A stretch of 64,000 nt of DNA from Methanocaldococcus sp. FS406-22 (GTDB lineage Archaea > AGJL01 > Methanococci > Methanococcales > Methanocaldococcaceae): contig NC_013887.1 of the NCBI RefSeq assembly GCF_000025525.1, positions 1,560,729-1,624,728 of the forward strand, given 5' to 3'. The position numbers were made by a program, and so were the translations under genes. This document shows positions 57,824-63,771 of this stretch, piece after piece. The notes below the pieces were generated by a model. That model was not told the DNA's origin. It did no database searches and was given only the letters and a program-made list of their open reading frames with translations. Position 1 is the first letter of the stretch. Every line of letters begins with the position of its first letter.

Positions 57824-60004
57824 ATGGGAAAAAGAGCAAAGATGATTGCTAAAATTAAGGAGTTAATGGAAAAGTACGATAGAATAAGAAATATTGGAAT
57901 CTGTGCACACATTGACCACGGAAAAACAACATTATCAGATAACTTATTAGCTGGAGCAGGAATGATTTCAAAAGAATTAGCTGGAGAGCAATTAGCTTTA
58001 GATTTTGATGAAGAGGAGGCACAAAGAGGAATTACAATCTTCGCTGCAAACGTTTCAATGGTTCACACCTATGAAGGAAAAGAGTATTTAATTAACTTAA
58101 TTGACACCCCAGGACACGTTGATTTTGGAGGAGACGTTACAAGAGCTATGAGAGCTATTGACGGGGCAATAGTTGTTGTATGTGCTGTTGAGGGGGTTAT
58201 GCCTCAAACAGAGACTGTCTTAAGGCAGGCTTTAAGAGAGAGAGTTAAGCCAGTTCTCTTCATTAACAAGGTAGATAGATTAATTAACGAGTTGAAATTA
58301 ACACCAGAAGAGTTGCAGAGCAGATTTATCAAAATTATCAATGACATTAACAACTTAATTAGAAAGATGGCTCCAGAAGAGTTTAAAGACAAATGGTTAG
58401 TTAGAGTTGAAGATGGAAGTGTTGCGTTTGGTTCAGCTTACAACAACTGGGCAATTTCAGTTCCATTTATGAAGAAGAGTGGAATTACATTCAAAGATAT
58501 AATCAAGTACTGTGAAGAAGATAAGCAAGATGAATTAGCTGAAAAAGCTCCATTACACGAAGTTGTTTTAGATATGGTTATTAAACACTTACCAAGCCCA
58601 CCAGAAGCTCAGAAATACAGAATTCCACACTTATGGAAAGGAGATTTGGAATCAGAAGCTGGAAAAGCTATGCTTAACTGCGACCCTAACGGACCATTAG
58701 CAGGAGTTATTACTAAGATTATCATGGACAAACACGCTGGAGCTGTTTCAGTTTGTAGATTATTCAGTGGTAGAATTAAGCAGGGAGACGAAGTTTATAT
58801 GGTAAATAACCAGCAGAAGGCAAAGATTCAGCAAGTATCTGTCTTCATGGGACCAGAGAGAATTCCGGTAGAGAGCATTTCAGCAGGAAACATCTGTGCA
58901 TTAGTTGGTTTAAAAGAGGCTTCAGCAGGAGAAACAATCTGTTCCCCAGATAAGATAATTGAACCATTCGAAGCTATAACACACATCAGTGAGCCAGTTA
59001 TTACAGTAGCTATTGAGGCAAAGAACACCAAGGACTTACCAAAATTAATTGAAGTTTTAAGACAGGTTGCAAGAGAAGACCCAACAGTTAGAGTAGAAAT
59101 TAATGAAGAGACTGGAGAGCACTTATTGAGTGGTATGGGAGAGTTACACATTGAGATTATCACAAAGTTAAAGATTGAGAGAGATGCAGGAATTCCAGTT
59201 GAGGTTGGGCAGCCAATCGTTGTCTACAGAGAGACAGTAACAGATAAATCTCCAGTAATTGAGAGTAAATCACCAAACAAGCATAACAAACTTTACTTTG
59301 TAGTTGAACCATTAGAAGAGGGAGTTTTACAAGCATACAAAGAAGGTAAAATCCCAGATGTAGATACAAAGAGGAAGTTAGATGACAAGATTGTTCAGGA
59401 ATTAATTAAGGCAGGAATGGACCCAGAAGAGGCTAAGAGAGTAATGTGTATCTATGAAGGAAACGTCCTCATTAACATGACAAGAGGTATTGTTCATTTA
59501 GATGAAGTTAAAGAGCTAATTATCCAAGGGTTCAAAGAGGCTATGAGAAATGGGCCTTTAGCAGCAGAGAAGTGTCAGGGAGTTAAAGTCAAGTTAATGG
59601 ATGCTGTCTTACACGAGGATGCAATCCACAGAGGGCCAGCACAAATGATTCCAGCAGCAAGATTTGGTATTAGAGATGCAATGATGCAAGCAAAACCAGT
59701 ATTATTAGAGCCAATGCAGTTCGTATTCATTAACACACCTCAGGACTTCATGGGAGCAGCGATGAGAGAGATTAGCAACAGAAGAGGACAAATCTTAGAT
59801 ATGGAGCAAGAAGGAGATATGGCAATTATTAAAGCTAAGTGTCCTGTTGCAGAGATGTTTGGATTCGCTGGAGCTATTAGGGGAGCTACACAGGGTAGAT
59901 GTCTCTGGAGTATAGAGTTTGCTGGATATGAAAAAGTCCCAAGAGAGATGCAAGAGCAATTAATTAAGCAAATTAGAGAAAGAAAAGGACTTAAATTAGA
60001 ATAA
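57824..60004 (+). CDS. fusA: Translation elongation factor 2
   Basis: GTPase that moves tRNA and mRNA through the ribosome. 726 residues. G1 is AHIDHGKTT (about residues 28-36), G3 [11 protein letters not shown]4 NKVD, and switch I contains the [11 protein letters not shown] segment. The diphthamide site lies near residue 600 in [11 protein letters not shown]. It ends the superoperon. The spacer that follows contains an H/ACA-like RNA and then a homing endonuclease gene. No intein. Confidence 0.97.
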
Positions 60005-60066
60005 ATTCCCTACTTTAGGATATCTTCACCTTTATTTTTTAATAAACTTAAAAAACTATTTTTACC

Positions 60067-60135
60067 CCCTACGGCCCACGCTCTCGACATGGCAGAGCCA
60101 AGGATGAGAGAGGGTAGGATATAGGGGGGACATTT
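60067..60135 (+). ncRNA. H/ACA box guide RNA with K-turn (pseudouridylation guide)
   Basis: A GC-rich island in an AT-rich spacer folds as one H/ACA unit. The basal stem is CCCCCTA (60067-60073) with TAGGGGG (60122-60128). The upper stem is CTCTC (60083-60087) with GAGAG (60110-60114). A K-turn follows, with GA (60088-60089) facing TGA (60107-60109), then the tip TGGC-AGA-GCCA. ACA is at 60130-60132, three bases before the likely 3' end. From the top of the internal loop to ACA there are 15 bases, matching the known 14-16 rule. The guide strands are CGGCCCACG and GGTAGGA. I have not identified the rRNA target. Confidence 0.82.
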
Positions 60136-60168: not shown

Positions 60169-60984
60169 ATGGTTAATCTTAAAGAACTTTCTCAAAAAGA
60201 GATTTTGGAGCTTATAGATTATGTTAGATTATTAAGGAAGCAAAATTTTAGCTATTCTCAAATATCCAAAAAGATTGAGATTGAGAGAGATATTAAAATT
60301 TCTAAATCTACGATTATTAGGTGGTGTAAAAATACAAACAACCCTTTCAATAAAATAAAATTTTTGGATTTATCTCCATCTCCTGAACTTTCCTATATAA
60401 TTGGTGTCTATTTTGGAGATGGTAACATTTATTATAGAAAAAAGACAGGAGCTTACTATTTTAGAGTTAAAGTTGTTGATAAGGACTTTGCAGAAGTTGT
60501 TAAAGATGATTTAATAAAAATCGGATTAAATCCAACAGTTAGCCATATTGAAGAGAAAACAAGAAGCAATAGATGGTATGTTGAGGCAAGTAGTAAAAGT
60601 TTGTATAAGTTTTTAAATCAAAATAAGGAAGAGCTTTTTAAAATTGCTGAAAAATATCCTGAAGATTTTTTAAGAGGATTTTTTGATAGTGAGGGATACG
60701 TTACTTCAGATAAAATAGCATTAGAAAATTATGATTTAGAACTTTTGGAATTTTCAAAAGAGTTATTAAAAAAGTTAGATATACATTCAACAATCCACAT
60801 AGCAAAGAAAAAAGGAACTGAATCAAATATTAGAGGTGAAATTTACCATTATAAAGACGATTTTTATAGATTATCAATCCATAGAAAAGAATCTATTAAG
60901 AACTTTGCTACAAAAATTGGTTTTTCTATAAAAAGAAAACAAGATAAACTTCAAAAGCTCTTAAAATCCATAGATAAACATTAA
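60169..60984 (+). CDS. Free-standing LAGLIDADG homing endonuclease with N-terminal HTH
   Basis: 271 residues. Two LAGLIDADG helices are visible, YIIGVYFGDGN (about residues 76-86) and FLRGFFDSEGYV (about 167-178), each with the catalytic acid (D and E). The N-terminal 60 residues look like a helix-turn-helix (SYSQISKKI...SKSTIIRWCK). It is not embedded in an intein or intron. It sits between an H/ACA RNA gene and the initiator tRNA gene. Similar free-standing proteins occur in M. jannaschii as I recall. It may be an active mobile gene or a domesticated DNA-binding protein. Confidence 0.88.
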   Translation: MVNLKELSQKEILELIDYVRLLRKQNFSYSQISKKIEIERDIKISKSTIIRWCKNTNNPFNKIKFLDLSPSPELSYIIGVYFGDGNIYYRKKTGAYYFRVKVVDKDFAEVVKDDLIKIGLNPTVSHIEEKTRSNRWYVEASSKSLYKFLNQNKEELFKIAEKYPEDFLRGFFDSEGYVTSDKIALENYDLELLEFSKELLKKLDIHSTIHIAKKKGTESNIRGEIYHYKDDFYRLSIHRKESIKNFATKIGFSIKRKQDKLQKLLKSIDKH

Positions 60985-63570: not shown

Positions 63571-63771
63571 TTATTCCCTCCCGAATCTTCCCATCATTCT
63601 CATTCCGCATCTTCTACCCCTTCCAGGGCCTAATCCTCTCCCTCCGGGGTCGATTCTATGAATAAATGTTGCTGGAGCTCCACAGTATGGGCAAACATCT
63701 GGTTTTGGAACTCCATAAGGCACTTCTATAACTTTTTGACACTTTGCACATAAAAATCTTTTCATTTCCAT
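63571..63771 (-). CDS. Small zinc-ribbon protein with Gly-Arg tail
   Basis: 66 residues or 64 if ATG 63765 is used. A rubredoxin-like zinc ribbon is formed by CAKC (near residue 8) and CPYC (near 32). The tail GGRGLGPGRGRRCGM is rich in Gly, Arg and Met. Such small proteins occur in methanogens near iron-sulfur or molybdenum-nitrogenase-like genes as I recall, but function is unknown. It begins nine bases after the next gene on the same strand. Confidence 0.75.
   Translation of the reverse strand: MEMKRFLCAKCQKVIEVPYGVPKPDVCPYCGAPATFIHRIDPGGRGLGPGRGRRCGMRMMGRFGRE

Follow-up and report, generated by a model that had tools for sequence, protein, structure and literature searches.

A probable single-hairpin H/ACA guide RNA in Methanocaldococcus, with a tentative target in 23S rRNA

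A short GC-rich segment follows the EF-2 gene in the window, the 64-kb stretch of DNA analysed here, and raises the question of what kind of RNA it encodes, which substrate that RNA acts on and whether the neighbouring gene has any part in it. The first-pass annotation had placed an H/ACA guide RNA at 60067-60135. The structure is present, but fold and sequence put its true coordinates at 60064-60132 on the + strand. A lower stem of 7 bp leads into an open pocket, a GA stem of 10 layers runs from there up to a K-turn, and an ACA box ends the element. The parts are as follows; in the text, single bases are numbered by the last digits of their window positions.

60064-60132, + strand: putative H/ACA guide RNA core, from lower stem to ACA box (fold, conservation, covariance model, descriptor)
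60065-60071, + strand: lower stem, 5' strand, partner of 60122-60128 (fold, covariation)
60073-60077, + strand: predicted 5' guide arm GGCCC, invariant across orthologues; complements LSU GGGCC 2619-2623
60078-60087, + strand: GA stem, 5' strand, its last bases G86 and A87 belonging to the K-turn (alignment, covariation)
60088-60102, + strand: apical stem-loop of the K-turn, with pairs C88-G102, U90-A100, G91-C99, G92-C98 and C93-G97 (fold, covariation)
60103-60107, + strand: K-turn bulge GAU (60103-60105) and sheared G106/A107; GAUGA conserved in the alignment
60106-60115, + strand: GA stem, 3' strand (alignment, covariation)
60117-60120, + strand: predicted 3' guide arm GGAU, invariant across orthologues; complements LSU AUCC 2614-2617
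60122-60128, + strand: lower stem, 3' strand (fold, covariation)
60130-60132, + strand: ACA box, the same in all 12 orthologues of the alignment and also carried by the G010 copy
57824-60004, + strand: EF-2 gene on the upstream side, a linkage that the genus does not conserve

Folding of the 81-nt stretch around the element on the + strand recovered the layout that had been predicted, at -32.1 kcal/mol (z = -3.3), a value equalled by 1 of 200 shuffles. The K-turn, as read from the letters, would be built of the sheared pairs G86.A107 and A87.G106 with the bulge GAU at 60103-60105, next to the 10-layer GA stem, and both its GA and its GAUGA are conserved. The ACA box starts 14 nt past the pocket-closing base U60115, within the 14-16 nt that separate an ACA (ANA) box from the pocket-closing pair; the distance had earlier been given as 15. 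Bases 78-80 and 113-115, earlier called guide, both sit in the GA stem, and the pocket is smaller for it.

At 61% GC, compared with 33% for the whole window, the element ranks second among 69-mers, behind a tRNA gene. The third rank is held by 63580-63648 (57% GC). A loose descriptor of the motif, which lacked a G-C criterion, was too permissive (26 matches in 40 shuffled windows) and gave way to a version with a count of G-C pairs. This strict descriptor, which asks for a GA tandem, a stem of 10 layers, at least 7 pairs in the lower stem and an ACA at 14-15 nt, has a single match over both strands of the 64 kb. It is the element itself, with nine G-C pairs, a number reached by only one match in 150 Markov-shuffled windows.

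The element is found in 13 of 14 Methanocaldococcus genomes. DNA search detected it in 12 of them, counting the source genome of the window (G000), and the covariance model added G010. G001 is the sole genome for which neither method found an orthologue, and no member of the family was found outside Methanocaldococcus, the Methanococcaceae being without it. The orthologue in G007 lies at C1:986083-986153, and similarity in the alignment drops sharply beyond the ends of the element. The comparison with relatives that the first-pass annotation had proposed as a check shows the stem pairings kept. In the 12-sequence alignment, 92.3% of cells in the proposed stems are paired versus 38-58% when partners are slid, and four stem pairs are changed on both sides, two of them in the lower stem (C-G/U-A and A-U/G-C). 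The covariation score is 0.171 versus 0.105 for shuffled alignments, and none of 500 shuffles reaches it. The mismatch G80xG113 in the GA stem is A-U in G002 and U.G in a paralogue, and this repair supports the 10-layer reading of the stem.

That paralogue belongs to an HgcG-like H/ACA RNA family, here family B, which shares the K-turn half with the window RNA but carries different guide arms. Two of its members are listed below.

G000 C1:1756686-1756757, - strand: family B member (L052)
G007 C1:216281-216352: family B member (L051)

A covariance model that included one family B member scores the family at 54-74 bits across the genus, except in G001 and G010. Its top rRNA site, which serves as a positive control of our target scan, is a canonical 4+6 bp match at LSU U2020, equivalent to E. 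coli 1915. An H/ACA motif for L2015 has been reported in M. jannaschii (PMC4652768). The family B site agrees in class with that motif, and the family B copy in G000 is probably the same motif. Such a swap, in which the K-turn half is retained and the guide arms are exchanged, is what a guide RNA would be expected to show. A third H/ACA-like family, C, is represented at C1:1543348-1543438 (+ strand) of G000 (L136) and at L060-L064; it forms 4+6 bp with LSU U2600 (E. coli 2504), but with a 3-nt gap. In several Methanococcaceae it stands in tandem with family B (L034, L035, L037, L040, L041).

The original identification is borne out by the fold, by conservation and covariation, by the polarity of the strand and by a paralogue whose guide arms are swapped, and the sequence makes it very likely that the element is a single-hairpin archaeal H/ACA pseudouridine guide RNA. 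It is a hairpin of stem, internal loop and stem, both stems covarying, and the genome encodes the partner protein families Cbf5, Nop10 and L7Ae. In the archaeal H/ACA particle, L7Ae sits on the K-turn and Cbf5 on the ACA box and lower stem, while the pocket pairs with the substrate and brings one uridine to the Cbf5 active site (PMC4652768). We infer a similar assembly and activity for the window RNA. L7Ae would occupy the K-turn, and Cbf5, together with Nop10 (and Gar1), would grip the ACA box and lower stem. Pairing of the substrate with the two arms of the pocket, GGCCC and (A)GGAU, would present one uridine to Cbf5 for conversion to pseudouridine. The element almost certainly acts as a guide for the conversion of a single uridine, with its substrate probably in the large rRNA.

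We sought this uridine by considering the pocket. GGCCC (73-77) and GGAU (117-120) are invariant in orthologues, and bases 72, 116 and 121 are variable. The target form UCCUACC-U-N-CGUGGGCCG (18 nt) suggested earlier is absent from the 16S and 23S rRNAs, which were scanned exactly. The nine invariant bases form a perfect complement to AUCC-U-GGGCC at LSU 2614-2623, with U2618, equivalent to E. coli U2522, between the two halves. In two species (G005/G006) pairing at this site extends to 12 bp (6+6). U2618 is the first-ranked rRNA site for each orthologous guide variant scored, with a mean of -21.6 over orthologous guides versus -15.3 for the runner-up. For the seven-variant average, shuffled rRNAs equal U2618 in 9 of 300 cases (support of about 0.03) and permuted guides in 2 of 300; several registers were tried, so these figures are a rough guide and not a strict probability. 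For the window RNA by itself, a match as good occurs in 47 of 200 shuffled rRNAs. The spacing is also non-canonical, with A116 unpaired and a one-base gap, or two if C77, which can pair with the base following U2618, is left unpaired as well. The standard register would instead pair A116 with the nucleotide 5' of the target and leave two bases of the target unpaired. Anomalies adjoining the target count as unfavourable for H/ACA guides (PMC4652768). Because of this register and the modest shuffled-rRNA figure, U2618 is only a lead. It is tentatively the most likely substrate, at somewhat under an even chance, and lies in domain V of 23S rRNA beside the peptidyl-transferase region.

It is about an even bet that the guide has another substrate, which could be an mRNA, a tRNA or a different rRNA site such as 16S U273 or 23S U1768. 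Such an alternative bears on the target alone and leaves the H/ACA identity intact. The irregular register at U2618 speaks for it, as do 16S U273 and two tRNA genes that contain both half-sites at different spacing. However, the rival sites score lower when averaged over orthologous guides, and no canonical-register site scores above shuffles. The tRNA half-sites, AUCC-CUUC-GGGCC, are disfavoured by their spacing and by a change at base 116 in G002; the scored tRNA scan covered 14 distinct tRNAs. Evolution of the target decides nothing. Methanococcaceae have GGGTC or GGATC at the position of the genus GGGCC, but with GGGTC a G.U pair could still form, and G001 keeps the U2618 site unchanged though it has no orthologue of the RNA.

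The element and EF-2 share a strand, with 60 nt from the stop codon to the start of the element, and the description of the RNA as lying after the EF-2 gene is accurate for the window. It does not extend to the genus, as EF-2 is upstream in 5 of 13 genomes (G000, G003, G006, G007, G011). In G012 and G008 a 309-aa protein with EF-Tu domain 2 is upstream instead, as it is in G004, G009 and G013 judging by ORF layout, and the remaining orthologues have yet other genes there. On the other side of the RNA lies a tRNA-Met gene in G000, G006, G012, G009 and G013. The closeness of the stop codon and the order common to five genomes could suggest that the element serves EF-2 as a terminator or structured 3' UTR and is not an independent guide RNA. 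We find this highly improbable, as other orthologues stand behind different genes, no T-run follows the stem, and the conserved K-turn and ACA box are required by no terminator. The EF-2 linkage is incidental, and EF-2 is outside the system. In G012 (L003) the upstream side resembles G008 (L009) and the downstream side the window, placing a rearrangement breakpoint near the RNA gene. Between the RNA and tRNA-Met, window 60169-60984 (+ strand) holds a free-standing LAGLIDADG_3 endonuclease ORF, which is present in G000, G006 and G012, survives only as a short trace in G007 and is missing beside the RNA in G009 and G013.

A functional RNA encoded by the minus strand is hardly credible: that strand gives a slightly more stable fold (-33.6 kcal/mol, z = -4.2), but it has no ACA box after the stem, the covariance model scores it at 24 bits versus 99 on the + strand, and the U.G or G.U wobbles in seven cells of the + strand would read as A.C mismatches. 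The wobble cells and model scores place the RNA on the + strand despite the marginally better opposite fold.

Within this well-known class, the guide RNA is a new member, or at least one not yet filed. The literature covered, which did not extend to the GC-rich screens or the P. abyssi H/ACA paper, names one M. jannaschii H/ACA motif (L2015) and does not mention the element; the element may plausibly correspond to one of the GC-rich RNAs of M. jannaschii. No report of a pseudouridine at 23S U2618 (E. coli U2522) was found in the literature searched. That a genus-restricted H/ACA RNA places one there, with the guide base adjacent to the GA stem unpaired, is on present evidence rather unlikely. 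If so, a pocket register so far deemed unfavourable would be in use. The family adds to Methanocaldococcus, whose H/ACA proteins are in use in vitro and whose guide set is poorly described, a conserved H/ACA RNA absent from Rfam. It also offers one testable pseudouridine prediction in domain V of 23S rRNA, which would probe how strict the guide register is.

No Rfam family matches the element even at relaxed threshold, including HgcE, HgcF, HgcG and snoR9 (RF00060, RF00058, RF00064, RF00065), which are of the same functional kind. Productive archaeal H/ACA RNAs have been defined by a '10/5/9' fold (PMC4652768). Like these RNAs, among them the Pyrococcus Pa motifs (PMC4652768), the window RNA has a 10-layer GA stem up to the K-turn, an ACA 14 nt from the closing pair, guide arms in the internal loop and a lower stem with additional layers beyond its 7 bp. 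Unlike them (PMC4652768), it is a single hairpin, its GA stem contains a GxG mismatch, and its best target match leaves A116 unpaired. Family B differs from it in arms aimed at E. coli 1915 and in being present in Methanococcaceae as well, but has a near-identical K-turn half and the same lower-stem design, and is paralogous by covariance model.
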